From positions 1 through 42,245 of the forward strand of contig UZAE01012107.1 in the NCBI GenBank assembly GCA_900617975.1: a DNA stretch of 42,245 bases. The letters are read 5' to 3'. The stretch comes from Rodentolepis nana. Its lineage: Eukaryota; Platyhelminthes; Cestoda; Cyclophyllidea; Hymenolepididae. How positions within the stretch are numbered: the first letter of the stretch is position 1; the number at the start of each line of letters is the position of its first letter. Positions 6,750 through 39,419 of this stretch are shown piece by piece. The position numbers and the translations under genes are program-made. The notes under the pieces were generated by a model, which saw only the letters and a list, made by a program, of their open reading frames with translations, was not told the DNA's origin and did no database searches.

Positions 6750-7234
6750 TTACTGTTGTTTTTTATGCGGCCCTCTACCTCCGTTCTGATTTAATTCATT
6801 CTCGTCATTCTCCTCTGGCCCATTCATGTTTTCTTCAGTCGAAATTTTGAGATCATCTGTAGTAGGCTCTTCAGTTGTATCTCTGTCCCCTTTAAATAAT
6901 TATAAAATATAACTTTCCAAAAATGAAACGCTTTTCTTCATTTAAATAGGAAAATTTGAAAGGGTCATAGGTAAATAAGAAATAAAGTTTTCTAGCACAA
7001 AATGGAACATGAATTTTAAGGGAAAATTACTTATCAATAAAAATAGTTAACAAATAATGCAGCGCAATAAATAAATGACTCAACGAAACTAACTATTGTT
7101 GCCACAAGCCTTCACCGCCGAGATCAGAACGACGAGAAAGAAAGCACACGAAATCTGATGAGCAAACAAAGTAAAATTAGATTTGTTTAATAAAAATATT
7201 TCATGCAAAGCAGTTAAATTACTAGTTTTGCCAT
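6750..7234 (-). CDS. Small secreted peptide gene A (3 exons, intact, 70 aa)
   Basis: Exons on the minus strand: 7223-7234 (MAKL), 7094-7154 and 6750-6889. Introns of 68 and 204 bases have GT...AG ends (gtaatt...cag; gttagt...aaag). The spliced product is 70 residues. Residues 1-24 form a signal peptide with core ISCAFFLVVLISAVKA, likely cleaved before CGNN. The mature part begins CGNNRDRDTTEEPTTDD and is acidic, with a basic Gln-rich end (HKKQQ), one cysteine and no recognisable domain. Reading through intron 1 gives an immediate stop, which supports splicing after codon 4. The identical exon lengths in gene F (12, 61, 140) support the model. Function is not shown by the sequence. By analogy with gall-midge salivary families it may be a secreted effector, but this is an inference. 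Transcript evidence is not available here. Confidence 0.8.
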
Positions 7235-8047
7235 AGTCAAATAAGAGTTGAAGACGGACTTCGTAGATTTAACTCAATGTAGGTTGTTCAGCAAAAGTGA
7301 AGCGGAAATTTAAGTTACTTATTTTGAAAAATAACCAATGAAAGTTAAAGCTCATGGTGCAGTCATGTCAATCAATTGGCTAATCTTCTATCATTTCCAC
7401 ATGTTGTTATCATTAAGAGAATGACTTCAAAATTTATCATAAATATGAAGCAAGACAATTAAAATAAATTATGCCAATTATTTTGGTACTTGAACTACCT
7501 GATTGTTCCAATACTTTCTGTACTAAATTCACATTCAGTGACATTACTGAATTGTAGCGTATTCACAATGTGGCATATTTAGTAAGCATTTCTGTCATTT
7601 CTGATTTTCGTTTCTAAATTTGGAATTCATAGCATCCTAAACTCTTAATTTATTCTTACAACAATTTGGTTTAAAACAGAGCCGAATTGAAAACTCACTA
7701 TGCGTTGAAATATCGCTATAATCAGAGTTTGAATTACTACCAATGGATAACGACACTTAATACAGCAAAAAAGCAGTGCAACCGCAACTCTTTAACACTT
7801 TCCAATAAAATTGAATTAACATGTTTCAGCCAAATTTTGAGTAGAAGAAAATCGATATTTGAATTCTGCTTAATCCACGGAAATAAATATCATTTCTGGC
7901 TAAACACGGTCATCTACTATAATAACCTAATCGTCTGAAACATTATTATGCAATTTTGAGCAATTTGGACCCACAATGAAACAAGATTGACAAGAATATT
8001 TCTATCTTAATTGCTCTCATCAAGCAAGAGATTTTATTATTAATTTA
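7235..8047. repeat. Upstream flank of gene A
   Basis: Noncoding, near-identical in inverse orientation to 38100-38934 upstream of gene F, and more distantly similar to the upstream flanks of B and D. It contains the promoter block at 7314-7339. The open stretch at 7687-7938 is mirrored in the other arm but ends early there, and it has no coding character. Confidence 0.7.
7314..7339 (-). promoter_or_regulatory. Candidate promoter block of gene A (altered version)
   Basis: On the minus strand this reads ATTGG (an inverted CCAAT box) followed by TATTTTTCAAAATAAGTAAC. It aligns with the block before genes B-E, where the second part is TATTTGCGGAAATAAATATC. The TATA-like AAATAAATA of the others is changed here to AAAATAAGTA. 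It lies about 80-105 bases before the ATG. Confidence 0.4.
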
Positions 8048-9505
8048 TTGAGTGGGCAACTAAGTCATTGCTGTTTTTGTTGAAAGATTCACTCTATACT
8101 TCTTTTGTTTTGTTAACGTGGCCAGAGCATCTAACCTATATTTTTTTCTTACTGGATGGGCTTATAGGTTAATTAGTAAAAAATTTTTTTGTTTAGTTCT
8201 TTAGTTTTGTTTTTACCCCAATTTAAAAATGAAAGAACAGGACGTGCACTTCCGACACATTTTATCGTATTACTTCCGAAAAGGCAAGAACGCATCGCAA
8301 GCACAAAAGAAGTTATGTGCCGTATATGGAGATGAAGCCGTGAGGAAGAAAGGCAGTGTCGAAATTGGTCTGAAAGATTTCGTTCCGGTGATTTCTCACT
8401 GAAAAATTCACAACGATCTGGCCGCCCAGTCGAAGTGGATGAAACCCATATCAAGGCCATTATCGATTCAAATCGTCACAGCACAACACGAGATATTGCA
8501 GAGAAGCTCAATGTGTCGCATACATGCATTGAAAATAAATTGACATAACCCTTGGTTATGTCAAGAAACTTGATTTATGGATCCCTCACCAGTTAAAGGA
8601 AATTCATTTGACGCAACGGATTAGCATCTGTGATTCGCCGCTACTGAAACGCAATGAGAATGATCCATTTCTGAAGAACCTAGTTACTGGCAACGAAAAG
8701 TGGATAGTTTATAACAATGTTACTTGCAAGAGATCATGAGTGAAGCAAGATCAACCAGCCCAAACAGTATGAAAAGCAGAGATTCACCAAAAAAAGATTA
8801 TGCTGTCAGTCTGGTGAGATCACAAAGGAATTTTGTATTTTTAACTCATGCCGCAGAACCAAACGATAAAGTCAAATGTGTATGTTGAAGAACTCGAAAA
8901 ACTGAAGGATGCAGTTGGTGATAAGCGGCCGGCATTATCAAATCGGAAGGGTGTTGTTTTCCATCATGATAACGCAATGCCTCACACATCTTTGGTTACT
9001 CGGCAAAAATTATTGGAACTGTGTTGGGATGTTTTGTCACACCCACCATATAGCCCTGACCTTGCGCCTTCGGATTTTCATTTGTTTCGTTCCATGCAAA
9101 ACTCTTTAAATGGTAAAATTTTTAATAACACGGATGATGTTGGATCGCACCTTATTCAGTTTTTAATAGCAAAGAACAGACATTTTACGAAGTCAGTTTT
9201 TTTAATAGCAAAGACCAGACATTTTACGAACACTCTGCAATTTTACGAACGGGGAATTTTTACTCTGCCAGAAGGATGGTCGAACGGAAAATATTTACTC
9301 TGCCAGAAGGATGGAAAAAGTCGAACGGGGAAGTTTTACTCTGCCAGAACGATGGGAAAAGGTCGATCACAAGAACGGCTATTATTGAATAAAGTTGTAT
9401 TTTAAACAAAAATTCCGAATTCGCCTTCTTATTTGAAATATTTAAACAAAAATTCCGAATTTGCCTTCTTATTTGAAATCGGCAATGCCTTAGTTGCCAA
9501 CCTAA
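8048..9505 (+). mobile_element. Mariner-family DNA transposon, inactive
   Basis: The ends are imperfect inverted repeats: 5' ttgagtgggcaactaagtca and, at the other end read in reverse, ttaggttggcaactaaggca. The element is flanked by TA at 8046-8047 and 9506-9507, the target duplication of Tc1/mariner elements. The inverted-duplication partner at about 38118-38131 has the same flanks with a single TA and no element, so the empty site is visible. Length is 1458 bases, longer than the usual 1.3 kb, because of short internal duplications at about 9155-9480. The end sequence and the transposase resemble the cecropia/mauritiana groups; I cannot decide the subfamily. Confidence 0.92.
8229..9388 (+). 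pseudogene. Mariner transposase remnant
   Basis: The reading starts at ATG 8229 (FRHILSYYFRKGKNASQ, the helix-turn-helix N-terminus). It shifts frame near 8348 to continue as RFRSGDFSLK and SGRPVEVDE, then again near 8545 after NVSHTCIEN into LGYVKKLDLW. Stops interrupt the reading near 8738, 8770, 8817 and 8843. The C-terminal half is open from 8848 (HHDNAMPHTSLVTRQK, HPPYSPDLAPSDFHLFRS). The mariner catalytic triad is DD34D. The second and third Asp are present (HHDNA; YSPDLAPSD), but the first is replaced: VTGNEKW instead of VTGDEKW. Stuttered duplications disturb the last 80 residues. It cannot encode active transposase. Confidence 0.92.
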
Positions 9506-9507
9506 TA

Positions 9508-10556
9508 CATATTCATACGCAAGCAAAAGTACTTTCTATTTTTGTAGCTATTATGAAATTTAGCACCTTTTGTCATATAATATTTCATAGTACTTTGCCA
9601 CTTTAAAAAGTAAAGTGAAGTTAAGGAAACAATTGTTTTTAAGTTGATTGAAAACAAAGAACATATGCGGTTTCTTGATTTTTAAGTATCATTTTGCAGT
9701 TAACATGCGGATGTTTCATAATTATTGACAAGCATTTTAAGTTGGCTTGATAGTTGACATAAGAAGCAACTTTCCATAAATGGAATAAAGAGAACGCTAA
9801 TTTTTCATCATCATTGCTGAAATGACTGCAAGATAATTAATAATGCTTTTGATCAAGAACTTTCAGTTCGTCAGATTCATATTAGGTTTTAAGGGCCTAA
9901 TACAAATTGATTTGACGGCAACAGATATTATAGGCAAACGTCCGCATTTTATTCATTTGAATTTTCCCTACCTCTAAAAAATAAAATTCCTGGTTAAACA
10001 TTTAAAAGTATCTAAAAAAATAATCATATGGGACAGCATCTCTGCATTATACAGGAAATGAAAAAATATTAAATTCGACAGAAACATACAACCCATTTTA
10101 CTATTCGAAATTGAGAACTTACAAATGATCTATGACAGATGATATAAATATTCGTAGTCATTTAAATATGAGTTGATATCTATTTAGCGCATGCTAATAC
10201 GAAGTATTACTTAAATTAAAAGAGTAATATTTTAGTGCGAAGAAGTGTTAATGAAATGCACAATTTCGAAGCATTTAAAGAAGAAAATGGTAGTTAATAT
10301 AAGTTGAAAAGATTTCTTATTCCAAATTGTGATTAAACTCAAAATAAAGAATAAATTTTTGTAACATTTTAGCGTTCAAGTTGCCAGCTGTGATGGTTTG
10401 TATTTATAAACATATGACAAACAATTATAACATGGAGTGATCACTGATTCAGACTTTGTAACTATTACAATGATATTTAGATTGGTTTATTTGCAATTTT
10501 GAATATTAAGTCAACTTTGTTGACAATACTGATTTTAATGCAATCCATATATAAGA
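9508..10556. other. Noncoding stretch, little recognised
   Basis: The first 38 bases complete the inverted-duplication arm; its last matched base is about 9545. After that I see no open frame with coding character and no clear repeat relation. Confidence 0.5.
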
Positions 10557-10920
10557 GTGTGCGGTAGACTTACCTCCACGTGGTGCACCCTGGGCAACGT
10601 GTTCTCATACGCAAAAAAGTCTTTAAACCGGCAGTCAATTTCTGACTTCTAACTGTAAACCGGCAGTCAATTTCTGACTTCTAACTGCCATGATCCCACT
10701 GTATATCTTATTCGATCACTTCCACCATACTTATCCTAACTTGTCTCTGCCTTTGTGTCTGTCTGTCTCTTTAACATCTTTGAATCTCCCTTCTGTCCTC
10801 CCTCTCCACTTTTTCTCATTTTGACGTTCCCTCTTCCCACTGGGGAACCCGAAGTCAGCTATAGGGCAAATGATAAGTGTCATAAAGCACGCCATTTGAA
10901 ATAAATAAATATATATATAT
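10557..10920 (+). repeat. Short interspersed repeat, copy 2 (full length)
   Basis: The head gcggtagacttacctccacg with tggtgcaccctgggcaac is followed by a pyrimidine-rich body with ctttgtgtctgtctgtctct and a tail of cgccatttgaaataaataaa running into (AT)n. The head, the body order and the simple A/T tail are shared with copies 3 and 5. A fixed 5' head with a microsatellite tail is typical of retroposed short elements (SINE-like). I see no clear A/B box, so tRNA origin is not supported. A 33-base segment (taaaccggcagtcaatttct...) is present twice in tandem at 10624-10689, unlike the other copies. Confidence 0.75.
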
Positions 10921-10959
10921 TCACTTACAATTAACCTCGGTTTTTAATTTAGCTAGCAT

Positions 10960-11690
10960 AACAGTGGACTTTAACATCTTGAAAAAAGCCATTTCAGTGA
11001 ATCCATATAAAGCGACTAAATTTTGGGTAGAAGAAAAATGTTAAAAAGTATTTTAGCTTAAACACAGAAGCACGTTTCGTTTACAAATGAGGCTAATTTC
11101 ATTGGACGTTTCAAACAACATTGAAAACTCAACATCACGATTCTTAATATCTGAAATATATCTTTGTAATTTAGAGCAAGTTTGAGACACAATGAAATAA
11201 GATTGAAGGGAACACTTCTAGCTTAGTTGTTGTCATCAGGCAACAGGCTTCCTTATTGATTTGCAACGCATCTAATGAAGTGAATCTATACCTCCGACCA
11301 CTTTCTACTTTCGTAACTACTAGTTGTTTTCACTTAACTTAAGACCTTTGCTTAATGGTATCTTTTGATTGAATGCGCTTGATATTCCTACGTCATTAAT
11401 GAGCATACGTGGCAATGAATTAATTTTTATTCTCGTTCTTTCTAAGACTGACAGACGTTCTCGTTTACGGCAGCATCTTCAGTTTACGTTTGAAATTTAC
11501 TGCTCAACCGTAAAATCCGCCAATCAATTGAAGGCCATCAAACTTTGTTTATTTTCATATTCATTAATTTTAAGCAATTAAATAGATAATAACCTGATTG
11601 TAAACCGAACTTAAAAATAAAAGTAATGATTAAAATGAATTCAATACATCTGTTTATGAAAACTGGAGTCTTCCATTATATTTTGCCAGA
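10960..11690 (-). repeat. Orphan upstream block of the secreted-peptide family
   Basis: On the minus strand this matches the noncoding upstream flank of the family. Anchors are 'ctaaattttgggtagaagaa' near 11016, like 'ccaaattttgagtagaagaa' near 7831. Others are 'caatgaaataagattga' near 11190, like 7975, and 'aatccgccaatcaattgaag' near 11514, like 'aatccgccaattgattgaag' near 25439. No exon 1, 2 or 3 follows: the place where the gene would lie is occupied by short repeat copy 2 and unrelated sequence. It is probably the remains of a lost copy. Confidence 0.6.
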
Positions 11691-12780
11691 TTTCGAATTG
11701 TGATACTCCGTGTATCATATTTTTAATCCACGCACTTATTTTATTGAAACTGCTTGAATTAGTAAGTCGTTCTTTAACCCATTGGGGTCAAATAGATGCT
11801 AATTAAAAATCAAGATTATTTTATTTCTTTCTTGAAGTGAGGCAACACGATGGAGTTAATTGCAAATAAAGCCCCTCGTTTACAGGTCTAATAGCTTCAA
11901 GGCGATCGTGATTTTGAGATTTCCAAATGTGAGCTTGGATTTGGCAGGTTTAACAGAACATGGCATGTTGACGGTTTATAGGCAATTTATTTCTTCAGCT
12001 TAGAACCTAGACGCAAACTACATTTATAATCATTTTGATGTTACCTGTCAACAACTGTCATTGTTCGTGTTATGTTGATCTTGATAGCTATAATTGACCT
12101 TTTAGTATAATCTATTGAATAATTTTTGATTCAATATTCATAACTTCCGTCTTTCTATTACCAAGGTTTAGAGATGATCTGAGGTCAAACGAAACATTTC
12201 ATTTCATGAAGCTCGTTTCGGTTCACTATAACCTATCATCCCCATCGATAATACAAAAGCAAAGTATTTAACCTATGGAAGACATCCCTGAGTTAAGGCT
12301 TAGTCCCAAATGAAGAAAAACTGTAAGTATACATTTTGCATTTTAACCCTAAACAGCCTTTAACCTGAAGAATTATTTTAAAGTAAATAGCGTAGAAAAT
12401 GAGATAAAATTTCCGAAAGTAAAATAGTGAAATTTGTTTAGTCACTTTCGAAAACTTTATGCAAAAAACTGCAGATTGCATTTTAGAGCATCTTACTCAA
12501 AAACGATGTTTTTAAAAAAATTGGGAAATTTCTAAATGACGTTTTCTATTTTAAAATTGTTATTTTCCTTACCCACGAGATAAACACTATGAAATGTTAC
12601 GTAGACTCTTCATTCCTTCACTCACGGAAACCATATCGACATAAGTTTTGTTGGTTTAGTGAACTGTAAACTTGAATCAAGTTTAAATTTAATGAATTAA
12701 TTCTACATCTCACTAAATTTGGGGCAAAATTTCTTCAAGAAACTATTCCATCACTAACTAGGCTCGATTTGCAAGCCTTT
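11690..12780. other. Noncoding stretch, little recognised
   Basis: AT-rich with scattered short open frames, none convincing. The beginning may extend the similarity to 25600-25690. The end may be the start of the upstream flank shared with 36770 onward. Confidence 0.4.
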
Positions 12781-13189
12781 TTTATTCCAAAAACATAAGT
12801 TGTGCAAATTTAGTAAATGTCACCGGTTTGCTTTCTTTCTGCAATTTTCAACCACAGTACACGAATCATTCACTTTAGTTTTTTTCAGTTATTTCTGGAG
12901 TGCCATGTAAAATGGAAATCTTTATTTTAATCAACTTTTAAGTTTTACTTTAGAAATGAGTGCAAAACAAGAATTTATCGTTATATGTAAAAATAAACAT
13001 TGTAATATTCACTGGCTTATTGAGATAATTTGGTGTTTTTAGTGTATTCCATTGCCATTATTTTTAATATTAATTTTTGTAGTTCAAAGCATTAATATTT
13101 AACGGATCATTCATTAATAAAACATAAATTACGAAGATGCACAACGTAGTCAACTAAATTTATGACGTTTACTTAAAACAAACTTTAGG
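12780..13189 (+). repeat. Distal upstream flank of gene B
   Basis: Similar in the same orientation to 36770-37130 upstream of gene F: 'ccaaaaacataagttgtg' near 12787 and 36772, and 'ttcattaataaaacataaattacga' near 13110 against the 37045 region. It is interrupted at about 13190 by the LINE remnant and resumes near 13690 (anchor 'ccagaaatatctgcctgc' near 13728, 'ttagaaatatctgcctgc' near 37305). Confidence 0.55.
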
Positions 13190-13642
13190 CAATGTCTAAA
13201 AACGCATGTGGGACTTCTCCATTTCCTCCTGTAGGTTACATAGAGTATATGTGGGTTGAGTGTATACTCTCAATCTGTGAAGGTGTTTTGATGCAATCTG
13301 TCCGTACGTAGTCTAAACTCAGCAACGGCTTCGATTCTTGGCCAAAGTCTAAACTCAGCAACGGCTTCGATTCTTGGCCATTCGGCTATGTGGTAGAGTG
13401 CCACTCCTAAACTCAGCAACGGCTTCGATTCTTGGCCATTCGGCTATGTGGTAGAGTGCCACTCGTCTAAACTCAGCAACGGCTCCGATTCTTGGCCAGT
13501 CGGGTATGTCGGAGAGTGCCACTGTCGATCGTTTCTCCCTTGTTCGAGCTTTAAGTTCGTTGTACCTTGAGGTCTGAAACTCTCTCTTGATTAAGGTCCC
13601 ATTTAAATTTAAATAAAAGTTTAATTTATAATCTTGGTTCAC
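13190..13642 (-). pseudogene. 3' end remnant of a LINE ORF2, with stuttered repeats
   Basis: On the minus strand the reading runs NELKARTREKRSTVALSDIP, DWPRIGAVAEFR, then (after a frame change) KHLHRLRVYTQPTYTLCNLQ and EEMEKSHMRF before a TAG. Jockey/R1-type elements end in this kind of segment, with a Cys-Cys-His-Cys motif after the 'AEFRL.TGH..L...L.R' stretch. One Cys is replaced by Tyr (PTYTLC). The 58-base unit around DWPRIEAVAEFR is repeated about four times in tandem at 13311-13500. The upstream flank of gene F lacks this insertion, so it entered the B flank after they separated or was lost from F. Whether it is the same LINE family as at 1-3093 cannot be tested, because the two pieces do not overlap. 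Confidence 0.7.
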
Positions 13643-14409: not shown

Positions 14410-14728
14410 TTACAAATATATTTACATTCATTTCAAGTGGTAGACGTTTGGACAATTATCATTATCCCTTTAGTAGAAGGAACATAAAAATGAAAAAGAA
14501 GGTCGAGAGGGGGTCAGAATAAACACTAACAGATGTTAAAGAGACAGAAAGTCAGACACAAAGGCGGAAAAGTAGGTAAGATGAGTACTGTGTGAGTTGT
14601 CGAATATGACATACAGTCGGGCCAAGGCAGTTTGAAGCCAGATGCCAATTGCCGATGGTTAAACTTTTTGACGTATGAGAATGTGTTACCCAGGGTGCCC
14701 CACATGGAGGTAAGTCTCTATCGCGCGC
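14410..14728 (-). repeat. Short interspersed repeat, copy 3 (full length)
   Basis: On the minus strand: head cgcgatagagacttacctcc and ggggcaccctgggtaacac, body with ctttgtgtctgactttctgt, tail ccacttgaaatgaatgtaaa. It is inserted in the upstream flank of gene B. On the plus strand the head holds GGAG|GTAAGT, a consensus 5' splice donor, about 730 bases before the start codon of gene B. Confidence 0.7.
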
Positions 14729-15337: not shown

Positions 15338-15363
15338 ATTGGATATTTGCGGAAATAAATATC
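15338..15363 (+). promoter_or_regulatory. Candidate promoter block of gene B
   Basis: ATTGG followed by ATATTTGCGG and AAATAAATATC, about 80-105 bases before the ATG. It is nearly the same before genes C, D and E, in a region where surrounding bases vary more. ATTGG is an inverted CCAAT box and AAATAAATA is TATA-like. The assignment is by motif only. Confidence 0.5.
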
Positions 15364-15442
15364 CTTACTGTCCCTTCAATTTTTTTTGAACAACAGGTAC
15401 TGAGTGAAATCCACGAAGTCCGTCTTCAACTCTGATTCAACT

Positions 15443-15946
15443 ATGGCAAAACTAGTAATATAGCTGTTTCATAGTAAATATTTTTTTATTGACCATGTCT
15501 AATATTATTTAATTTGTTTAACAGATTCTGTGTGTTATCCTTCTCGTCGTTCTGATCTCCTTTGTGAATGCTTGTGGAAACAATAGTTAGTTTCGATAAG
15601 TCATTTATTTAATGCTCTTTATCGTTTGTTAACTATTTTTCATTAATAAGGGCTTTACCATTAAAATTCAAGCATAATTCTGTGACTGAAGAAATTAATT
15701 TCTTAATATCAAATTTGAAACTACAAAATTATACTTTAAATTATGACATACAGTACATTCTTTGAAATTAAAATGGTATAATTGTTTAAAGTGAGCAAAA
15801 CTACAACAGAAAAGGCCACTACAAATGATCTCCCAATTCCCACTCAGTCCAGCAATGAAGGGGAACAGAAAGAGCCAGAGGAGAATGATGAGAGGGACGA
15901 AGGGAAGTCAAAGGAGGAGAAGAGGGGTCATAAAAAATCTCAATAA
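15443..15946 (+). CDS. Small secreted peptide gene B (3 exons, intact, 75 aa)
   Basis: Exons 15443-15454 (MAKL), 15525-15585 and 15792-15946. Introns of 70 and 206 bases are bounded by gtaata...aacag and gttagt...taaag. The product is 75 residues. The signal peptide ends ILLVVLISFVNA, with predicted cleavage before CGNNM. The mature part runs SKTTTEKATTNDLPIPTQSS and then a Glu/Lys/Asp-rich tail ending RGHKKSQ. It is strongly charged and probably disordered, with one cysteine after cleavage. It is first of a tandem pair with gene C (1.0 kb between). A candidate AATAAA lies at 16102-16107. No known domain is visible. A secreted effector-like role is inferred from the family pattern only. Confidence 0.8.
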
Positions 15947-16852: not shown

Positions 16853-16878
16853 ATTGGATATTTGCGGAAATAAATATC
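16853..16878 (+). promoter_or_regulatory. Candidate promoter block of gene C
   Basis: Identical in its core to the block before gene B: ATTGG, then TTTGCGG and AAATAAATATC, 81-106 bases before the ATG. Confidence 0.5.
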
Positions 16879-16958
16879 CCAACTCCCCTTATCATTTTTT
16901 GCTACACAATCAACACTGAGCAAAATTCACGAAGACCGTCATCAACTCAGATTTGACT

Positions 16959-17439
16959 ATGGCAAAACTGGTAATATAGCTGTTTTTAAGCAATTTCTAT
17001 AAACATATCTTAAATTATTTCATTTGGTCAACAGATTCTGTGTGTTATCCTTCTCGCTGTCCTGATTTCCATTGTGAAGGCTTGTGGAAGCAATAGTTAG
17101 TTTTGAAGAGTCATTTATTTACTGCGCTACATTGTTTGCAAACTATTTTTTATTGATGAGATATTTTCTCTTACAATTCAAGCATGATGAAGCTTGATTC
17201 TTAATTTTAACTTCGAAAATATATTTTTTTTATTAAAGTCAAGATTCGTATTATTTTTTGCTATAGTGGACAAACCTTCAACTGAAGTGCCTACTACAGA
17301 AAGTCTTCCAATCGCTACTCAGGAGAGTGCTAAAGAGGAAACGAATAAGCCTGAAGAGAGTGAAGAGAAAGAGGAAGAGGAAGAGGAGGGGAAGAAGGAG
17401 CAAAATGGAGATGGAGAGACGCAAAAAAATCAGAGTTGA
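16959..17439 (+). CDS. Small secreted peptide gene C (3 exons, intact, 81 aa)
   Basis: Exons 16959-16970 (MAKL, last codon CTG), 17035-17095 and 17267-17439. Introns of 64 and 171 bases have gtaata...aacag and gttagt...tatag ends. The product is 81 residues, the longest of the family. The signal peptide ends ILLAVLISIVKA before CGSNM. The mature part starts DKPSTEVPTTESLPIATQES and then becomes an extreme acidic run of Glu with a few Lys (about residues 51-67), ending QKNQS. The acidic run is encoded by an uninterrupted purine tract at 17362-17400. An open frame can be read upstream of 17267 into intron 2, but the family comparison places the exon start at the AG at 17265-17266. Function unknown; secreted, probably disordered. 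Confidence 0.82.
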
Positions 17440-21654: not shown

Positions 21655-23060
21655 CTGAATCAAGACAATTCATGCAACTGTTCATAAATATTAAATTATA
21701 AAGGCCTAAAGCTTCATGATTTATTATTTAGTGGAACTAAAATAAAGAACTATTTCTATCAAAGAATTATTCAAGAACATTTTTTCCCTTCGTTAAGGTA
21801 ACAAATTTATTTATCCGAGATTGATTTATTACTGTCCATATTGAATGGTATAATAAACAAACAATTGATATAAATGCATGGAAACTTGGCTATTAGGATA
21901 AAAAGTAACTCTTTTAAAAATTAAATTTTGTATTAAATATTTTGTCCATGATATTCATTAACAATTCTACTTTGGTAAAATAAAGATAAATATAATTTGC
22001 AAATAATAGTTGACACATTAATTTTCCGTCAGGATCTGTTTAAATACATCAAAATAGAGAAAGCAGTTAGCCTGAGAAATGATAATTTTTCGTTTTTCAT
22101 TCTCAAAACTTTTTTAAATTATTTCAAGATAATTATTAATATTTTTAAATGAGCAACGGCATGATTGGTTTGATTTCATAATTATACTTATATCAATTCA
22201 CAATTCAGACAAAAGGACCTTTTTAATATTTTTTTATTTGTTCGGAATCAAAGCTATCCCTATTGGCATTTGTAATTTTATAATTTGTGACAGGTGTTTT
22301 ATGAAATTGCTGAAACAGGTCAAATTAAAAAAAAACAATTCAAAACTAATCTATATCCTATATTTTTAATAATTTACTAAAAGATCCAGCAAATGATCAA
22401 TCATTTTTTTCCTGAGCAATTGCTACTGAGAGATTTAAATTTGTTTTGCTGTTCATCAACTCCGATCTTTTTCTAAATTATTCAATCGGAAGTTACTTTT
22501 TTGTAATAGCATACATTATGCGAACATTATGCGGCTGCTACGAAGGACAAATATATTCTAGTTAATAGGTAGTGCTAATTCAAAAATAATCTTAATGCTT
22601 TTATAGGTTTAGTTTATAGCTTATGAAAAAAAATATTTGCCAAATTTATATGGGAAATAGAATATATATTTGTACGCTAAATCCATGTTTTTTCTAAAAG
22701 AAGATCTTGATGCTTTCATAGAGTCAATCTGTTACCATCAACTTAGTTAATTATAAAGATGAATCAATTTTTTGGATATAAGGATATAAGCTCTTCTCAT
22801 TCACAAATCTATGTAGCTTTTTAAGATAAAAATAGAGAACTAAACGTGATAGTGATTATTAAAAATCTATCATTATACATTTTGAAATGTTTACCACTTT
22901 GTAAGAAATATAATCGATTTCCGAAAAGAAGTATTTATAGTGTTTATCTTTCTTGTGTTAAGGAATATTGTTTTGATTTAAAAATTTGTTTGCAGTGAAA
23001 TCTGCAGCAAACTGTCGATAGTTGTCAAAATTTTACTTGCAATAATGTATTAATAAGTGT
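21655..23060. repeat. Repeat block, inverted relative to 3195-4740
   Basis: Second copy of the block described at 3195-4740, in opposite orientation. It follows the 3' flank of gene C, as the other copy follows that of gene A when read on the minus strand. The E unit seems to lack it. Confidence 0.7.
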
Positions 23061-25687: not shown

Positions 25688-26125
25688 GAGTTTCACCTCC
25701 ACGAGGTAGACGACCATGAGAGAACTATGAATAGCTGAAAGAGTATCAATAAGCATTGGATGAACTCGCAAGTAGGGTAAGGATTAGGACAATGATTAAA
25801 AAAATGTTTCTTTAAATTTAATAAATTTTAATCAGAAACCTTAGTTTGATAGTTTGATGTGTTGAAGCCCTATAATTCATTGGTTTTTTGTAGGTTGTTT
25901 TACTTTCAACTTATTTACTGTTTAATTGATTTAACTTAATGTATACGATAATAGACAGCATTTAATGGTTTTCAATTGATTGGCGGATTTTGTGATTATT
26001 AGTTAATTTCAAGCGTAAATTAAAGATGCTGCTATGCATGAAATGGTCTGTAAGTTTAGGCGATGTATATAATAAAATTAATACATTGCTACGAATATTT
26101 AATAATGACGTAGTGATATCAAGTA
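25688..26125 (+). repeat. 440-base direct repeat, copy in the upstream flank of D
   Basis: Closely similar to 27265-27705: both start 'cctccacgaggtagacgacc' and contain 'gaagccctataattcattgg' and 'ttgctacgaatatttaataa'. It is the distal part of the upstream flank of gene D. Confidence 0.8.
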
Positions 26126-26941
26126 CATTCTATCGAAAAGATAACAATTAAAGACAGCTTGCAAATTGAATATTGAAAGTAGCTGGGGTATATGTGCACT
26201 CAAGTAATTGTGTTTACAAATGAATCAATAGATTATTCATGGAATTTGTTGCTTGATGATAGCAATTAAGATGAAAAAGGTCATTCTAATCTTGTTTCAG
26301 GATAGCTTAAAATTGCATTTAATTACAGAGTAATGATATTAACATTTAATATATTATAGTAAAGGACAATTTGTAGATCAAATTTATTGTAAATCTCCAA
26401 GGTAGTACCATCGCACTGCTGTTTTTTGATTTAAGTGACGATATCCACATCAATTTTATGCTCTGATTTACAATTTGTATAGATCTAGAAATTCGCCTTT
26501 ATTTTAATTTAAACTGTTGAAGGAATAAATTAAGAGTTTAAGTTGTTATAACTCATAAAAAAACAATTTTGCTAAATATGATACAATGGGAATAACCCGT
26601 GATTCAGTAGTTATTGGAAATAAATTTTACATAAGTTTTTGAACCAAACATGTCGCTGAATTATAAAAATAATTTGCATTAGTGTTGCGTCAAGTCAAAT
26701 TTCAATTCAATTCAACTTTCTTTTATCAAATTTAATTCAAAAATTTCAAGTCATTTTCCTAATAAAACAACTTATAGATATGGTAGAAGATAAGCCGATG
26801 GAATGACATTACAATGTGTCATGTGCTTTTACTTTTATTGGATGCTTGCGGAAATAAATATCTCAACTGTCCCCTTCACTTAATTTAAACAACAATCGCT
26901 GAGCCAAATCCGCGATATCTGTCTACAACTCTGATTTTTCC
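26126..26941 (+). repeat. Proximal upstream flank of pseudogene D
   Basis: Homologous to the proximal upstream flanks of B and F and, inverted, to that of A. The promoter-like block at 26837-26862 has ATTGG and GGAAATAAATATC. Confidence 0.6.
26837..26862 (+). promoter_or_regulatory. Promoter-like block of pseudogene D
   Basis: ATTGG then ATGCTTGCGG and AAATAAATATC, the same spacing as before B and C. It is preserved although the gene behind it is broken. Confidence 0.45.
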
Positions 26942-28023
26942 ATGGCTAAACTAGTAATATTACAATCTGTCATGCATTTTTTATTGACCAAATCTAAGAT
27001 TATTTCTTTTGTCGTTCGTTATCTTTTCTGTTGTTCTGATCTCCATTGTGAAGGCTTGTGGCAACAATAGTTAGTCTTATTGAGTTGGTTATTAAAGGCG
27101 ATAACTTATTTTTAGCTATTTTTCATTAATATTAATTTTCCGTTACATTTTAAGCATGCTTTTGGGTTGGAGAAATTTTTTATTTAATTCCAACCTTGAA
27201 ACCAAAAATATATACATTTAAATTATGAAATGCATTTCATGCTTTGAAAGTAATATGGTATGGCGAGTTGTTCCTCCACGAGGTAGACGACCATGAGAGA
27301 ACTATGAAAACTGAATGAGTATCAATAAGCATTGGATGCACTCGCAAGTAGGACAAGGGTTAAGACAATGATTCAAATAAATGCTTCTTAAAATTTAATA
27401 AATTTTAATCAAAACTTAGTTTGATAGTTTGATATGTTGAAGCCCTATAATTCATTGGTTTTTCGGAGTTTGTTTTACTTTCAACTTATTTACCGCTTAA
27501 TTGATTTAACTTAATGAATATGATAATAGACAGCATTTAATGGTCTTCAATTAGTTGGCGGATTTTGCGATTTTGCAGTTAATTTCAAGAGTAAATTAAA
27601 GATGCTGCAATGCCTGAAATGGTCTATCAATTTAAGCGATGTATATAATAAAATTAATACATTGCTACGAATATTTAATAATGAAGTAGTGATATCAAGT
27701 GCATTGTGGGTTGAAGAAATTTTTTTACTTAATTTCAACCTTGAAACCAAAAACAAATGCATTTAATTATGAAATGCATTTTATTCTTTGAAAATAATAT
27801 GGTATAATTGCTTAAAGTGAACAAACCTGCAACTGAAGCGCCTGCCACAGAAAATCTTGCAGTTCCGACATAGGCCAGCTCTGATGGGGAAGGGAAGAAA
27901 CCTGATTCGAGTGACGAGAAGGAAACTGAGCAAAGTGATGGGAAGGGCAATGAGAAATCAAAAGAGAAGGGAGGGACGAACGGAGATGATAAAAGTAAAC
28001 AAAAAAAACTAGTAAACATATAA
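26942..28023 (+). pseudogene. Secreted-peptide pseudogene D (composite, three lesions)
   Basis: Exon 1 is intact at 26942-26953 (MAKL). The exon 2 remnant at about 27014-27069 still reads FVIFSVVLISIVKACGNN, but a deletion removed its start and the AG acceptor. The nearest upstream AG (26997-26998) would give a 71-base exon instead of 61 and change the phase. Intron 2 is interrupted by a copy of the upstream flank (27265-27705), flanked by two versions of the same intron segment (27165-27257 and 27706-27806). Exon 3 (27818-28023) reads NKPATEAPATENLAVPT, then TAG at 27871-27873 where B and C have CAG, followed by an acidic stretch like the relatives' up to TAA at 28021. It may be the fusion of two neighbouring copies. 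Confidence 0.85.
27265..27705 (+). repeat. 440-base direct repeat, copy inside pseudogene D
   Basis: Copy of 25688-26125 lying in what would be intron 2 of D. It brings the far upstream flank of a family gene directly next to an intron 2/exon 3 segment. It is either an insertion or the remainder of a second gene whose exons 1 and 2 were deleted. Confidence 0.8.
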
Positions 28024-29344: not shown

Positions 29345-29865
29345 ATGGCTAAACTAGTTGTATAGCTGTTTCTAAGCAAATGTTTTTACTGGCCATGTCT
29401 AATATTATTTCCTTTTTCTTAACAGATTCCGTGTGCTATATTTCTCGTTGTTTTGATTTCCATTATGAAGGCTTGTGGCAATAATAGTTGGTTTCGATGA
29501 GTCGTTTATTTAATGCTCTATTTTATTTTAAACAGTGCTTAATTGATTAGTAATATTCCTTTACAATTCAAGTATAATTTTGTGTTTGAAGAAAACAGTC
29601 TATCAATTTCAACTTTTAAACTCTAAATTGTTTTATATTAAAATCATAAACAGTTTATTCCTTGAAAGTAAGATAACATAATAAATTAAAGTGAACTAAA
29701 CTACGACTGAAGAACCTACTACAGATAGTCTCCCACTTTCCAATGAAGCCAGCTCCGAAGAGGAATCGAATCGATAAAGAAAATTTAAAAGATGAAAAGG
29801 GGAGGAGGGAATAGGCGAAAAAAATGGAGACAGATAGTCTCCCACTGCTTAAAAAACACCAGTAA
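29345..29865 (+). pseudogene. Secreted-peptide pseudogene E
   Basis: Exon 1 is at 29345-29356 (MAKL) with donor gttgta. Exon 2 at 29426-29486 is intact (IPCAIFLVVLISIMKACGNN) with donor gttggt. Exon 3 starts at 29692 after taaag, but its second full codon is TAA (29697-29699), where relatives have AAA. A second TAA in frame lies at 29775-29777, and the acidic tail is frameshifted. Spliced as its relatives are, it would give only 26 residues, little more than the signal peptide. After the stop the sequence still reads TTTEEPTTDSLPLSNEAS-like, so decay is not very old. A short segment (acagatagtctcccact) occurs twice, at 29719 and 29829. Confidence 0.85.
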
Positions 29866-29869
29866 TTAG

Positions 29870-32720: not shown

Positions 32721-34782
32721 TGATGAAGAAAACCCATCATGATATTTCCCACTACTTATATAAATGGTTTCTGAAATTTCTCCTCTAACAGATGAACATT
32801 GAGGCAGGCAATACTAAATCTTTAATAAATAAAGTTAATTTGCGTAATAATTTAAATAGAAATGACTGTCCTGAAATGACATGCTTTGAAAATAATATGA
32901 TTTTGAATTACAATTGTTTCGAAGTAAATTATATTTTAATATGCATAAAAACTTAATACAGAAACGTAATAAATTTGATATATTTATTTTTAAAATCTTA
33001 TTATACCTCTTGGAATTCGAAATTCCATTTTGCTATTGTACTTTCTAAAATTCAGTAATGCTAGAGTTGATCTATCTGAAGATATTTTCAAATACAGACA
33101 ACTAAGCAAAGACTTTAAATTTGAAAGGATAAATTGCAACACGTTCAACTATTGCTTATTATTGGAGAATAACCATTTGCCTGGAAAGTTAGTTTAAGAG
33201 TTAGAGAAAAATATCGAGTCATGTAATTACGTTTTTGTCATGATCTTACCAATTACAATTTCAAGACCTAAAAACCACATTTTGGTAAACTCGCAACTGT
33301 TACCCCAATCGGCTAAGATACTAAATACTCTGGACCTGGGCATAGTTATAAGTAAAGCATATTTGGTGGGACCAAAAATGTGACAAAGTTTTGCTAGGTA
33401 AAGTGCCTTAATCTTTTGTTATAAAACTAATGTGAAGGAAAATCATTGCATTCATTCGACATTTTCGTTAATTTTGGTCACAGTTTGAGAGTCTATTTTG
33501 TAATTTAAAGTGACTGGAACAAATTTTTATACTTTTTTAGATTTAATGATACCTTAAAATGGCTTTAGGCAGTTTAAAAAGATATTAATACGGAATATAG
33601 TCTTTTTAATTTTGCTTCATAGCTTTTCGCATTATTAAATTTACAGTTATTTGTACTTTCATAATTTGTAAAAATAAATATTGTAAAAAGACTTTTCTGC
33701 ATTTTCTTGAAGGAAAATTAGTTTTTCGATATAAAATGATTTCTCTGTAAAACGTTAAAATTTTATTCTGTCCGCCATATAGAAATGACTGAAGATGGAC
33801 CAAGATATTTCAAAACCTTTGCCATGTTTCAAATGAAGTGTTAATAAAAGATACTCTCTAGGATTTGGGTGTGACGAATATGTGGATGTAAAAAGATGTG
33901 TTGCTGAAAATTTTTATTCATTCATATTTGGTGAGTTATTCATTTATTTGAGCACCAAACATAATATGTAGCTATTCCTAGTAATTATTTTCCACTGTTG
34001 TAGCCTTTTAGTTGGAAAGAAGCCCTCAAACGATTATTTTATAAATACAAGGTTAAATAATCTATTTAATATATGAGCATATTATTTTCGAACTGGCATT
34101 GTTAACTTTATATAAATTTTGAAAAAATTTCATTTTTTTTCTTAATTATAATGGCTATGGTAAAATCATTTTGTTGGTTATAACTTTTTTTCAATCTCTG
34201 AAATTAATCAAAATGATGTTATCATAAAAAAAGTCGATACAATATTTGCTATCTATTTGATTTCAATTTGGTGTTAAACATCTCCGAATATTGCAACGGA
34301 CCTTATTGCTTTCTCACATTACAAATATTCCAGAGGCTAGAAATCTACTTCGTGCCAATTTCACTATTTTTGGAGTTCAAGTAGTCGAATGGTTAGATAA
34401 TGATGAATGCAGATATCTATTCAATTTTTCCTCCGCGTATACTAATTGTTTAATAAGACTACAATTAATTCCTTCAGACCGTGCTTTATTTACTCTTAGT
34501 TTTTTTTATTTTTCCAGGTGAAAAATTCGAATGTATCCAACGATTGTGTGGAATTTTACGCAAAAGTCGGTTCACTGATGTGTCTTCCTTCCCGAATTAG
34601 TGTAAATACGAACACGTCTTTCATCAGTCTCTTACCAATTTCCGTGTGAGTAAGCTGTGCAAATATTACGTCGAACAAATTGAAAAACCGAACATTGTCT
34701 TAATGTTAAAATTTAATAACAAATAAATAATAATAATGTTTAGGCAAAAAAATATGATTCAATTAATAAGCTTCAGTTGATT
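32721..34782. other. Noncoding stretch
   Basis: AT-rich and without a convincing gene. The end (34380-34680) matches 23750-24050. The plus-strand open stretch 34291-34521 has no signal, no domain I recognise and no conserved frame in the homologous segment. Confidence 0.4.
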
Positions 34783-34796
34783 ATATTATTTTAAAA

Positions 34797-35122
34797 TTGT
34801 GGTGTGCGATAGACTTACCTCCACGTGGTGCACCCTGGGCAACGTATACTCATACGGCAAAAAAGTCTATTAACTGGCAGTTGACTTTTGACTTCAAACT
34901 ACCCTCACCCCATTGTATGTCATATTCGACTACTTCCAGATTACTCACCTCACCTTTTTCCACTTTTGTGTCTGTCTCTTTTACATTTTTGAAACTCTCT
35001 TCTGTCCCCCCCTTCCTCTTGACTTATTTCACTTTGATGTTCCTCCTCCTCTGTGAGGCCTGAAGTCAACTAAGGGGCCAATGATAACTTTCACAACGCC
35101 TGCTATTTGATATAAATAATAA
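34797..35122 (+). repeat. Short interspersed repeat, copy 5 (full length, target duplication)
   Basis: Head gtgcgatagacttacctcca, body with ttttgtgtctgtctctttta, tail ctatttgatataaataataa. It is flanked by ATATTATTTTAAAA at 34783-34796 and ATATTATTTTGAAA at 35123-35136, a 14-base target duplication with one mismatch. This supports retroposition. Confidence 0.8.
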
Positions 35123-35136
35123 ATATTATTTTGAAA

Positions 35137-36769
35137 GGTTAATCTTTAGTTAGATTCAAATATATTTACTTACTATTTTAATTTATGATTTATCAATTAT
35201 AAATGCACATTATTCTTTTTGTCTTGTTTCAATATCTTCCTACCCTGCGTCGATATTACAACAATAACAACACGGACATTCACTTATCTCCAAATTAGGG
35301 ATTAGCTGAAAGAGTGGAAATGGTATGCCACTAAGTAAGTATGAAAATTCGTCCTGTAAAAGTTTATGTAATTTCTGATTAGCATAGAGATAACGAGTAT
35401 GTTGTAATTAGAGATTTATAAAGTGAAATGATACCATGGCTAAACCGGCCAATCGCCTGTGCCCTCATGAAGTCTGGAGAATGCGAAATTGGTACTGATC
35501 GCTTCGATGATTGCCTGTGGTAGATATTGCGTTGACCATCCAACCAACCAATAATATATACCGGTACATAGTCTGTGTTGCCAACTCTATCTCTAAATAA
35601 ACTAATTCCAGATTTTAATAATTTTTTTAATCCGTTTATGAGAAGAACCTACCGAAAATCTCATTGTGTATTGATAATGAAATTAGTATCTGATGGAGTA
35701 ATTTATCAACAATATATGTGGGTTTTTAAAGGTAAGAGAGAAGTTTCTTGCAGGAGTTTGATGAAGTAATAATACACCAAGTTTGTTGTTTACAATGTTT
35801 AGACAAAGGGCAATGCAGCGTTACTTCTTCTTCAGTTTCATTTAAGTTAAATGACTCACAATAACTTTAGATTTCATTTCAACAATGTTAGTTCCAGTAA
35901 AACAATATGCATTGTTTTTTTTCAATATGCAAGAGAGCATACCGGAGATGGATTAAAGTAAAAATTTATAAATACATTAATGAAGTGCAGACAAATGCTG
36001 CATCCAATCAATTAGACAGATGCTATTTATTATCTAAAATCCTAAATCTAAAATTTTAAAAGGTATTCATTTTCATATCCACTTGTGGTCTACTTTGGCA
36101 ATTAATTATTTATTAGACTAATTATGACAAAGATCTCTTTTGATTTGGGTAGGTACTAGGGGTAAGGAAGAAAATAATTAAATTAATAAAAGACAAGCCA
36201 TCATTTAAATCAAGACAAATCATCTGCAATTTCGTACTTTTGTTTATCAAAACTAAACTTAAAATTTGCTTGTGAGAACGATAAAGTCAATTGTAGAATG
36301 GCAAGATAATTTGGAAAAGGCCAACCTAGTAATGATAGTAAATTCATAAGTGAAGTGAAATTATATTGGGGGTGGCAAGTAATTGGATATAAGACAACCT
36401 AAGGGAATATGTATTTTTTTCTAAACACTCCTTGAATAGTTTCACGGAAATTTAGAAAGCTTTTCTCAAGCAATAAAATTATAGATTATGTACAAACATT
36501 TATGACGAATAAGCGTCCATACAACAGTGCTTATTGGAAGCACTATTTGAGGATACCAATTAAGGAGCTAGTGAATATAACTCAAGCGGTGTAGATTAAT
36601 TATATTACCAAAAATCAAAAGGTCTGATTAATAATATTTAAACACAAATATTTTCACAATCTTCATGAAATATTGTAGGTTACAATGGTATATTTAAAAT
36701 TTGTATTTGGAAAATCCCATTAAGCGTTAATTAAGTCATTTTCTTATACTAATTTCAAGTCCTTTGTCG
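35137..36769. other. Noncoding stretch
   Basis: No gene recognised. A GC-richer patch at about 35436-35520 begins ATGGCTAAACCGGCC but stops after 20 codons and has no hydrophobic core, so it is not called as a family member. Confidence 0.4.
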
Positions 36770-38934
36770 GTCCAAAAACATAAGTTGTGATGATTTAGGA
36801 AATATTGCCGATTAAAGAGTCAGCATAGCACAATTAATTTTCATTTTTTAATTTGTGACCGTACGCGTACCATTGGCTTTAGTTGTATTTCAGTTTACTC
36901 TGTTATGCCATGCTAGTTTGATATCACTAATTAAACCGGATTAAGTTTTTATTCTTGAACAAATTAGACTTTTAATATAAATTATTTCACATCAATTAAT
37001 TTCAATAAAAATTTTTATTCCAAAGCAACAATATGGATCAAGTCATTCATTCATAAAATATTAATTATGATGGTGCACAAAGTAGTAGCCATCTTAATTT
37101 ATGGTATCTAAAAAAACAGATTTATAGGTACTCCAATCCCAATATCAATAAAACCCCAAGTTAATGTTTGAGCAAATTGTTCATTTAAGTTTAAAAAATT
37201 AATTAATCGTTTTCCATCTTATACTTAAATTTGATTATTTATTTAATATTACTATTTAAATATGTGATCGCAATTGGGATTTTAAGAATTAAAACTACTC
37301 AATGTTAGAAATATCTGCCTGCCTGTAAAGTGCCCTAAAATGAAGTTCGAATTCACATAAATAACTATTTTTGTTATTAAATTCAATTATAATGCTTTTC
37401 AAAAACCCTTTTTAAAATTCAAAAACTCTCGTCTTTTTGAAATGCAAGGACAAATCAAAAGGTGTTTTGAAATTGCATTTTCATGGGCATGTGGATGTTT
37501 TGATAGAAATAAAATTTATTTTTTAAATTTAGGAAATTTTGAAGAGAGACTCCTGCTTAATATAAAGATGCATTAAACCCCCATATATCATTAGTTTTTG
37601 CGAGTTTGAATGTCATTAGTCTGAATTATCTTTAATTTATTTTGTCATTGACTTCTCTGAATAAGCAATTATTAAAATAAACAATTTAATAGCCTTCAAT
37701 TAGTTTGTAGATTATGCAATTGTGTAGACGATTTCAAACGTAAATCATGGATACTACAATACACAAATGGTAAAAAATAGCCTATTGCTACGTATGTTAA
37801 ATGATAACGTAGGTCTTTAAGTGTATACTACCAAAACTCTAACATTAAGCAGATGTGTTAATAAAGGTGAATACGGCTTGAAGTATATAGAAAGTAGTTA
37901 AAACACATAGTTGCTAAAATACTTATGTTTCCGAATGATCAGTAATAGAATCTGTTGTTTGGCGACAGCAACCTTATTGCATTGTTGATTGCACTTGCTC
38001 TAAATTAAGTAGGGTGTTAAAGTGCGTTCAATCAAAATATTAAAAAACGGTGAATACGGCTTGCTGAAGCGATTCTTAAAGCTAAAAAAATAGAAAGTAC
38101 TTTTGCTTGCGTATGAATATGTAGATAAATAATAAAATCTCTTGCTTGATGAGAGCAATTAAGATAGAAATATTCTTGTCAATCTTGTTTCATTGTGGGT
38201 CCAAATTGCTCAAAATTGCGCAATAATGTTTCAGACGATTAGGTTATTATAGTAGATGACCGTGTTTAGTCAGAAATGATATTTATTTCCGTGGATTAAG
38301 CAGAATTCAAATATCGATTTTCTTCTACTCGACATTTGGCTGAAACATGTTAATTCAATCTTATTGGAAAGTGTTAAAGAGTTGCGGTTGCACTGCTTTT
38401 TTGCTGTATTAAGTGTCGTTATCCATTGGTAGTAATTTAAACTCTGATTATAGCGATAGTTCAACGCATAGTGAGTTTTCAATTCGGCTTTGTTTTAAAC
38501 CAAATTGTTGTAGGAATAAATTAAGAGTTTAGGATGCTATGAATTGTAAATTTAGGAACAAAAATCAGTAATGACAGAAATGCTTACTAAATATGCCACA
38601 TTGTGAATACGTTACAATTCAGTAATGTCACTGAATGTGAATTTAGTACAGAAAGTATTGGAACAATCAGGTAGTTCAAGTACCAAAATAATTTGCATAA
38701 TTTATTTTAACTGTCTTGCTTCATATTTATGATAAATTTTGAAGTCATTCTCTTAATGATAACAACATGTGTAAATGATAGAATATTAGCCAATTAATTG
38801 ACATGACTGCACCATGAGCTTTAACTTTCATTGGTTATTTTTCAAAATAAGTAACTTAAATTTCCGCTTCACTTTTGCTGAACAACCTACATTGAGTTAT
38901 ATCCACGAAGTCCGTCTTCAACTCTTATTTGACT
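36770..38934 (+). repeat. Upstream flank of gene F
   Basis: Homologous in the same orientation to 12780-15442 before gene B. From 38084 it is also near-identical, inverted, to the flank of gene A. The minus-strand open stretch 38270-38482 mirrors 7687-7938 and is not taken as coding. At about 38118-38131 it shows the empty site of the mariner. Confidence 0.7.
38830..38855 (+). promoter_or_regulatory. Candidate promoter block of gene F (altered version)
   Basis: ATTGG then TTATTTTTCAAAATAAGTAA, as in gene A and different from B-E. Confidence 0.4.
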
Positions 38935-39419
38935 ATGGCAAAACTAGTAATTTAACTGCTTCGCATGAAATATTTTTATTAAACAAATCTAATTTTACTT
39001 TGTTTGCTCATCAGATTTCGTGTGCTTTCTTTCTCGTTGTTCTGATCTCGGTGGTGAAGACTTGTGGCAACAATAGTTAGTTTCGTTGAGTTATTTATTT
39101 ATTGCGCTGCATTATTTGTTGACTATTTTTATTGATAAGTAATTTTCTCTTAAAATTCATGTTACATATTGTGCTATAAAACTTTATTTCTTATTTACCT
39201 AATACCCTTTCAAATTTTCATATTTAAATGAAGAAAAGCGTTTCATTTTCGGAATATTATATTTTATAATTGTTTAAAGGAAACAGAGATACAACTGAAG
39301 AGCCTACTACAGATGATCTCAAAATTTCGACTGAAGAAAGCAAGAATAAGCCGGAGGAGAATGACGAGAATGATGTAAATCAGAACGGATGTAGAGGGCC
39401 GCGTAAAAAACAACAGTAA
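38935..39419 (+). CDS. Small secreted peptide gene F (3 exons, intact, 70 aa)
   Basis: Exons 38935-38946 (MAKL), 39015-39075 and 39280-39419. Introns of 68 and 204 bases are bounded by gtaatt...atcag and gttagt...taaag. The product is 70 residues and is the closest relative of gene A. Signal core ISCAFFLVVLISVVKT is followed by CGNNRNRDTTEEPTTDD. The tail is acidic and ends CRGPRKKQQ. It has a second cysteine (Gly in A), and Thr instead of Ala just before CGNN, which may weaken or move the signal-peptidase site. Compared with A, I count about ten amino-acid changes and three silent changes over the coding exons. AATAAA follows at 39509-39514. No known domain. Confidence 0.82.

Follow-up and report, generated by a model that had tools for sequence, protein, structure and literature searches.

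The window analyzed here, which is the whole stretch of DNA at its full length of 42,245 nucleotides, carries six loci of a tiny three-exon gene (locus A on the minus strand, loci B to F on the plus strand), four of which are intact. This six-locus family is real, beyond chance. It probably (at a probability of roughly 0.6) represents a lineage-specific family of small secreted disordered peptides that evolves by birth and death in a parasitic flatworm and whose products are possibly host-facing. The family is perhaps undescribed, though of a familiar kind, and automatic annotation could easily overlook it since its exons are so short. The features of the window are:

7223..7234, minus strand: locus A exon 1 (MAKL)
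7094..7154, minus strand: locus A exon 2, 61 bases, remaining leader and CGNN
6750..6889, minus strand: locus A exon 3, 140 bases
15353..15361, plus strand: TATA-like AAATAAATA, 90 bases upstream of the locus B start codon
15443..15454, plus strand: locus B exon 1 (MAKL)
15525..15585, plus strand: locus B exon 2
15792..15946, plus strand: locus B exon 3, 155 bases
16959..16970, plus strand: locus C exon 1 (MAKL)
17035..17095, plus strand: locus C exon 2, ending CGSN
17267..17439, plus strand: locus C exon 3, 173 bases
26942..26953, plus strand: locus D (broken copy), remnant of exon 1
27011..27069, plus strand: locus D, remnant of exon 2 that lacks the acceptor region
27818..28020, plus strand: locus D, remnant of exon 3 with an in-frame stop (approximate end)
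29345..29356, plus strand: locus E exon 1 (broken copy)
29426..29486, plus strand: locus E exon 2
29692..29853, plus strand: locus E, remnant of exon 3 with a stop at its second full codon (approximate end)
38935..38946, plus strand: locus F exon 1 (MAKL)
39015..39075, plus strand: locus F exon 2
39280..39419, plus strand: locus F exon 3, 140 bases
4737..8047: inverted duplication, left arm, 95-99%, with locus A on it (given as four pieces)
38122..41457: inverted duplication, right arm, carries locus F

In loci A, B, C and F, exon 1 has 12 bases and exon 2 has 61 bases, the introns are in phases 0 and 1, and exon 3 measures 140, 155, 173 and 140 bases, respectively. The initial annotation had described six such loci (exon 1 made of ATG plus three codons, exon 2 of 61 bases, the same phases, exon 3 of 140-173 bases in the intact genes), and both its coordinates and the junctions that it named are correct. 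It also had exon 2 ending in CGNN, but in locus C the end reads CGSN.

The family extends beyond the window. A query of 275 bases from locus B retrieved 14 places in the 107-Mb assembly, with E values from 7e-140 for locus B itself to 1.7e-34 for the weakest. Six of them are loci A to F and the eight others lie on five other contigs of the same assembly. A second leader query retrieved the identical 14 loci, and all six places found with locus F (from exon 3 to the 3' side) are among them. The exon 3 peptide of contig C790, a query with little power for distant members, retrieved only itself and two broken copies. The search covered one assembly and the count is at least 14 loci; since the smallest contig met has 11,389 bases, short contigs may be missing from it. 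The loci are clustered on three contigs. Ten of the 14 are intact and share one splice plan, six on three other contigs repeating that of A, B, C and F: exon 1 of 12 bases, intron 1 of 64-71, exon 2 of 61, intron 2 of 171-209 and exon 3 of 137-188, all introns having GT and AG ends. A pattern match on contig C4240 was taken as due to chance, since no leader was seen by eye around it.

Putative signals also flank the genes. The TATA-like AAATAAATA is found at -76 to -92 in seven of the ten intact loci (it is absent from A, F and one C790 copy), and AATAAA lies within 350 bases 3' of the stop codon in eight. Loci A and F are near-alike and lie on opposite arms of the 95-99% inverted duplication. 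Two of the copies in the window are broken, their stops having been read by eye. Locus D has lost the acceptor region of exon 2, has an in-frame stop in exon 3 and contains, between the remnants of these exons, a second copy of the sequence at 25735-26129. Locus E has a stop early in exon 3, at the second complete codon. As read from the sequence, this inverted duplication and these broken copies demonstrate a birth-and-death process.

Exons 1 and 2 encode a signal-peptide-like leader, suggesting that the products are probably secreted. It consists of a short basic start, then a hydrophobic stretch (mean hydropathy 2.41-3.70 over 14 residues in the ten intact loci), then CGNN (or CGSN, CNNN). 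Valine at -3 and A, T, S or G at -1 are found in all ten; the N-terminal signal peptide is recognised by its composition and the -3/-1 rule only. The peptide encoded by exon 3 appears as a charged, apparently disordered tail: in a charge-hydropathy plot, all ten fall on the disordered side. The acidity attributed to these peptides at first holds for nine of the ten intact loci, the remaining one having a pI of 8.97. What is retained of the initial view is that several related genes encode small, probably secreted peptides whose leader is conserved and whose tail end varies more.

According to the classical rules of secretion, the leader would send the product into the secretory pathway and would be cut before the cysteine, at a V-x-[A/T/S/G] site. 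Cleavage would release a peptide of 49-66 residues, mostly acidic, rich in Ser, Thr, Pro, Glu and Lys and probably disordered, whose last part would tolerate change. This peptide might be secreted by a gland or at the surface and come into contact with the host; there, a disordered and possibly glycosylated tail could perhaps change at little cost. Such host contact is a guess from the organism and the composition, and an effector role is possible for the family. The peptides may instead have an internal role in the worm, as adhesive or eggshell secretions or as products of gut or reproductive glands, without being aimed at the host; this explanation seems to us possible but distinctly less probable. 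It rests on the identical sequence evidence for secretion, and tails that are charged and rich in Ser and Thr would suit structural or mucin-like secretions as well. No sequence feature separates an internal from a host-facing role, but the turnover of copies, some of them broken, suits a changing target slightly better.

Divergence and codon changes were counted in nine of the ten intact loci, locus A being omitted as a near copy of F. Mean pairwise identity is 80% in exon 2, 76% in intron 1 and 71% in intron 2, while in exon 3 it falls from 72% over the initial 60 coding bases to 56% over the remainder, where indels are numerous. Hence, the contrast first described between a conserved leader and noncoding parts and a different mature part is true of the last part of exon 3 (56% versus 71-80% elsewhere in the gene), but not of its first part, which is comparable with the introns. 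Exon 2 has no indel, its pooled dN/dS is 0.41 (36 pairs) and Fitch changes number 19, 11 and 28 at the three codon positions. Over the first 30 columns of exon 3, dN/dS is 0.65 and the changes number 50, 28 and 45, whereas the tail gives a dN/dS of 0.28, a value that is saturated (dS 2.48). These figures suggest a modest coding constraint on exon 2 and the first part of exon 3. Since the introns show about the same degree of conservation as this part of exon 3, the product itself is weakly constrained.

Positive selection was sought by dN/dS among the nine loci and in the young A/F pair and was not established. In the mature region this pair differs by nine nonsynonymous changes on 109.7 sites and one synonymous change on 25.3, too few to tell. 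Differences between A and F amount to 0/12 in exon 1, 1/68 in intron 1, 3/61 in exon 2, 13/204 in intron 2, 11/140 in exon 3 and 26/1138 downstream; therefore, exon 3 has diverged further than the downstream flank, whereas an excess over intron 2 is not clear. The upstream comparison (266 differences in 1295) was left out because the stretch passes the arm end at 8047.

These data also bear on whether the loci might be a decaying or non-coding family, that is, duplicated remnants without product and with residual open frames. Four of the 14 loci are broken, similarity among the introns equals that in the first part of exon 3, and the dN/dS of this part is not far from neutral. Exon 3 is free of stops in all ten intact loci despite about 56-72% identity, and intron 2 has 0-9 stops per frame; however, five of the ten have another exon 3 frame without stops as well, so that openness alone says little at such length and composition. 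Against decay, ten of the 14 loci have, at 56-80% identity, retained both the reading frame and the complete plan, exon 2 lacks indels, and changes are unequal among codon positions. We regard decay as improbable.

Among flatworm systems, two are close to the family that we propose. Antigen B of Echinococcus has a separate short leader exon, introns of 68 and 89 bases and a mature part of 65-71 residues (PMC2919375). Like the present genes, it is a multigene family with short introns; unlike them, it is described there with two exons and one intron, the first exon corresponding to the signal peptide (PMC2919375), whereas here three exons are found and the leader is split over exons 1 and 2. 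The micro-exon genes (MEGs) of schistosomes are described as having short exons of 3-81 bases among introns of up to 5 kb (PMC10526429). They share with the present family a constant signal peptide and secreted variable products, disordered in some MEG cases (PMC10526429), but differ from its three exons of 12, 61 and 137-188 bases and its introns of 64-71 and 171-209 bases.

Membership in a described flatworm family of this kind is very unlikely. Both systems resemble the present family in that their secreted products are small and, apart from a conserved signal peptide, variable (PMC10526429; PMC2919375), but the exon plan matches neither. Moreover, a Pfam scan of exon 3 pieces from six of the ten intact loci and of two exon 2 pieces, scanned apart, gave nothing over a cut-off, including for antigen B; the pieces of locus C gave two chance-level matches only. 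The exon 3 piece of locus C had no match among solved structures better than E 1.1 and no relative in a protein search. No description of the family was recognised in a literature search for a flatworm equivalent (titles and abstract openings). If expressed, the family would add a further secreted-peptide family to those of parasitic flatworms.

The source is very probably a neodermatan (parasitic) flatworm. Of the two COX1 matches in the assembly, the only one above the cut-off is of the flatworm type. It is open under table 9 and also under table 5. In our own reading against chain 8ugh_4A, three of its seven AAA codons fall at Asn and the others at Glu, Leu, Ile and Ile, none at Lys. The 11.5-kb mitochondrial contig fits the flatworm code (AAA=Asn, TGA=Trp). 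Its genes, named by our own reading of the ORFs, lie on one strand in the order cox1, a 1.8-kb gap, cox2, nad6, nad5, cox3, cob, nad4, atp6 and nad2, which is the common neodermatan type. The genes nad1 and nad3 lie off this contig, and rRNA genes were not found on it with Rfam. A polystomatid flatworm (e.g. Protopolystoma) is disfavoured, since in the two polystomatids of PMC10324467 cox3 does not lie between nad5 and cob, as it does here. A nuclear HDAC8 fragment on contig C25 matches best the chains of Schistosoma mansoni, at 145.9 bits, compared with 113.1 bits for the human ones. A dihydrolipoyl dehydrogenase fragment gives no information on the phylum. The 5S rRNA copies, compared with those in PMC12294053, and the GC values in PMC12677651 and PMC6739440 did not discriminate between flatworm classes or species.

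The initial annotation had placed the genes in the salivary glands of a gall midge, a setting contradicted by the COX1 type, the mitochondrial gene order and the HDAC8 scores; a gall-midge origin is thus rejected. This correction of the organism matters most: the setting is very probably a flatworm. The combination of a conserved leader and a variable tail does not in itself point to a gall midge. In PMC2955719, SSSGP-1 of the Hessian fly forms a cluster of small genes with a conserved upstream region, leader and intron and with tandem and inverted copies, and diversifying selection is reported for gall-midge SSSGP (secreted salivary gland protein) genes. A true SSSGP cluster is hardly tenable here, the least probable of the explanations: the conserved promoter, leader and intron, the variable mature part and the tandem and inverted copies do resemble SSSGP-1 (PMC2955719), but the mitochondrial contig and best HDAC8 match are of flatworm type, a high-copy repeat of about 310 bases ties the window to the HDAC8 contig and to all five other family contigs, and the tail stands out less than in SSSGP, dN/dS above one not being established.

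As an analogy, the likeness to SSSGP-1 covers small clustered genes, tandem copies with one inverted copy, and a more variable mature part (PMC2955719). The differences are the phylum, the two introns of the flatworm genes, the first after four codons, compared with the one intron given for SSSGP-1 in that text (PMC2955719), and a mature peptide whose first part is conserved to the same degree as the introns. Tentatively, the flatworm genes could be an undescribed, fast-turning, host-facing family of disordered secretory peptides in which a conserved promoter-leader-intron cassette is joined to an exchangeable tail exon, an independent counterpart of the SSSGP design.

The anatomy of the six tiny three-exon genes (loci A-F), as described in the initial annotation, is good. 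With both strands read and exon limits computed for the intact loci, exon 1 consists of ATG plus three codons and exon 2 of 61 bases in A (minus strand) and in B, C and F (plus strand). The introns of these four loci are in phase 0 and phase 1 with GT/AG ends, exon 3 falls within the announced 140-173 bases (A and F 140, B 155, C 173) and the junction coordinates are exact. The CGNN motif proposed at the end of exon 2 was found in A, B and F, whereas C carries CGSN. By eye, the acceptor region of exon 2 is missing from D, whose exon 3 is also interrupted by an in-frame stop; in E, exon 3 runs into a stop at its second complete codon.

The contig from which the window is taken (C2305, bases 1-42245) is 62,859 bases long; it is one of 4701 in an assembly that totals 107 Mb. 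An assembly search with a 275-base piece of B, extending from upstream to exon 2, matched 14 places (E 7e-140 for B itself to 1.7e-34), and a second query taken from contig C790 recovered the same 14. Besides A-F on C2305, C236 carries three loci, C790 carries two, and C1820, C3839 and C4381 carry a single locus each, so that 11 of the 14 are clustered on three contigs. Because scoring was limited to the best candidates and no contig shorter than 11,389 bases was met, the family has at least 14 members. Ten share a single plan:

Computed plan of the ten intact loci
Exon 1: 12 bases
Intron 1: 64-71 bases
Exon 2: 61 bases
Intron 2: 171-209 bases
Exon 3: 137-188 bases

The other four (D, E and the C3839 and C4381 copies) are broken. 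The last two are without an open exon 3 of at least 36 codons at the expected place; in the C3839 copy, sequence is also inserted in the region of exon 1 and the second donor is GC instead of GT, and the aligned start of the C4381 copy is not ATG. Family loci have a GC content of 28-33% vs about 37-43% in the gene-bearing loci sampled. Seven intact loci have a TATA-like AAATAAATA at 76-92 bases upstream, and in eight AATAAA occurs within 350 bases after the stop. The family is real and coherent, and its members are probably genes for small secreted peptides.

The leader begins with M-x-K-L from exon 1 and continues in exon 2 with a strongly hydrophobic stretch whose last residues are V-x-[A/T/S/G]-C-[G/N]-[N/S]-N. 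Judged by the signal-peptidase rule, this leader end would fit cleavage, leaving a predicted mature part of 49-66 residues. The peptides encoded by exon 3 are charged and contain much Ser, Thr, Pro, Glu and Lys; by charge and hydropathy, all ten fall on the disordered side of the boundary. Their announced acidity applies to nine (pI 4.05-5.09), the tenth being basic (8.97), and five intact loci have an N-glycosylation sequon at the start of exon 3. With exons searched apart, no Pfam family exceeded its cut-off for six exon 3 and two exon 2 pieces; for the exon 3 piece of locus C alone, a protein search gave no relative and solved structures nothing better than E 1.1.

The exon 3 reading frame has no stop in any of the ten intact loci. 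However, the next frame has 0-2 stops (none in five loci), the third 3-11, and intron 2 has 0-9 per frame; at such short length, openness of exon 3 alone is therefore only moderate evidence. Exon 2 contains no indel, with a pooled dN/dS of 0.41 and pN > pS in one of 36 pairs (Nei-Gojobori, nine loci). In exon 3, the first 30 columns give 0.65 and 6 of 36 pairs, and the remainder is saturated for dN/dS. By parsimony, the changes at the three codon positions number 19, 11 and 28 in exon 2, and 50, 28 and 45, then 57, 48 and 79, in the first and second parts of exon 3. These substitution patterns indicate modest coding constraint rather than hypervariability. The initial annotation opposed a conserved leader and noncoding parts to a different mature part; the identity profile limits this contrast to the end of the tail, as the start of exon 3 is as conserved as intron 2.

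Mean identity among nine loci (A left out as a near copy of F)
Exon 1: 81%
Exon 2: 80%
Intron 1: 76%
Exon 3, first 60 coding bases: 72%
Intron 2: 71%
Upstream 100 bases: 71%
3' flank: 65%
5' flank: 62%
Rest of exon 3: 56%, 31% gapped

A and F lie in the arms, 30-34 kb apart, of a 95-99% identical inverted duplication:
4737-8047, arm with A
38122-41457, arm with F
Between them, 11/140 positions differ in exon 3; intron 2 has 13/204 differences and the downstream stretch 26/1138. The exon 3 changes comprise nine nonsynonymous and one synonymous in whole codons, plus one in a split codon. Taken together, these counts are suggestive of diversifying selection, short of demonstration. The presence of four broken copies among 14 points to birth and death of family copies. 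A second, older inverted pair occupies 3191-4738 and 21659-23056 (pieces 81-93% identical).

The cluster had been read as an effector-type one, with a contrast known from gall-midge secreted salivary gland protein families. A nuclear HDAC8 fragment (contig C25) matches best chains 7p2s, 4bz5 and 6gx3 (145.8-145.9 bits), which we take to be Schistosoma mansoni HDAC8, vs 113.1 bits for other, presumably human, HDAC8 chains. COX1 has two matches in the assembly, of which only the one on contig C1797 is above cut-off. The part matched there contains seven TGA codons and can be read without a stop under the flatworm mitochondrial code and likewise under the general invertebrate code, so AAA is the distinguishing codon: in the alignment read by eye, it stands at three Asn positions of chain 8ugh_4A and at no Lys position. 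Genes named from ORF reading follow on one strand of C1797 as cox1, gap, cox2, nad6, nad5, cox3, cob, nad4, atp6, nad2, which is, we assume, the common neodermatan order. That reported for two polystomatid flatworms (PMC10324467) is unlike it. The window shares an interspersed repeat, about 310 bases long, with C25, C101 and the five contigs that carry the other family members. Together, COX1 code, mitochondrial order, HDAC8 and common repeat make a neodermatan flatworm very probably the source; the first three contradict the gall-midge setting, and the predicted peptides may have an "effector" role.

The gall-midge clusters (PMC2955719) are alike in design but differ in organism and intron number, and selection is not established for the present family. 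Antigen B genes have two exons instead of three (PMC2919375), and micro-exon genes, with exons of 3-81 bases and long introns (PMC10526429), are also unlike the present plan. In a literature search for a flatworm equivalent, no paper among those listed was recognised as describing this family, which is perhaps undescribed.

The 310-base repeat lies at 34801-35110 (plus strand), with copies at 10557 and 31515 (plus) and at 14724 and 3170 (minus); 4503 first-look candidates were found genome-wide, of which 40 were scored. Its start is the exact start of a match to the HDV-like self-cleaving ribozyme RF02682 (44.5 bits against a gathering score of 44). Another copy, L021:1850-1919, reaches 46 bits, the remaining copies in scanned stretches being below gathering. 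By eye, UAGACUU/AAGUCUA could form a mismatch-free P2 helix in 16 of 22 aligned copies. The repeat is an abundant, SINE-like element with a predicted 5' HDV-type ribozyme, in a genome that is probably a flatworm's. Partial copies form a tandem-like pile at 3376-4732 of L055 (G000:C4240). 5S rRNA-like sequences are also widely dispersed in the assembly: among 2172 first-look candidates, 47 were scored, giving 39 matches (37 over the gathering score), mostly full length and on different contigs. Other remnants in the window are:
1-3010, non-LTR retrotransposon remnants with internal duplications
2417-2767, minus strand, frame of endonuclease domain PF14529 in the non-LTR remnant
8848-9402, plus strand, remnant of a mariner-like transposase (PF01359 at 19.2 bits, under the cut-off of 24)
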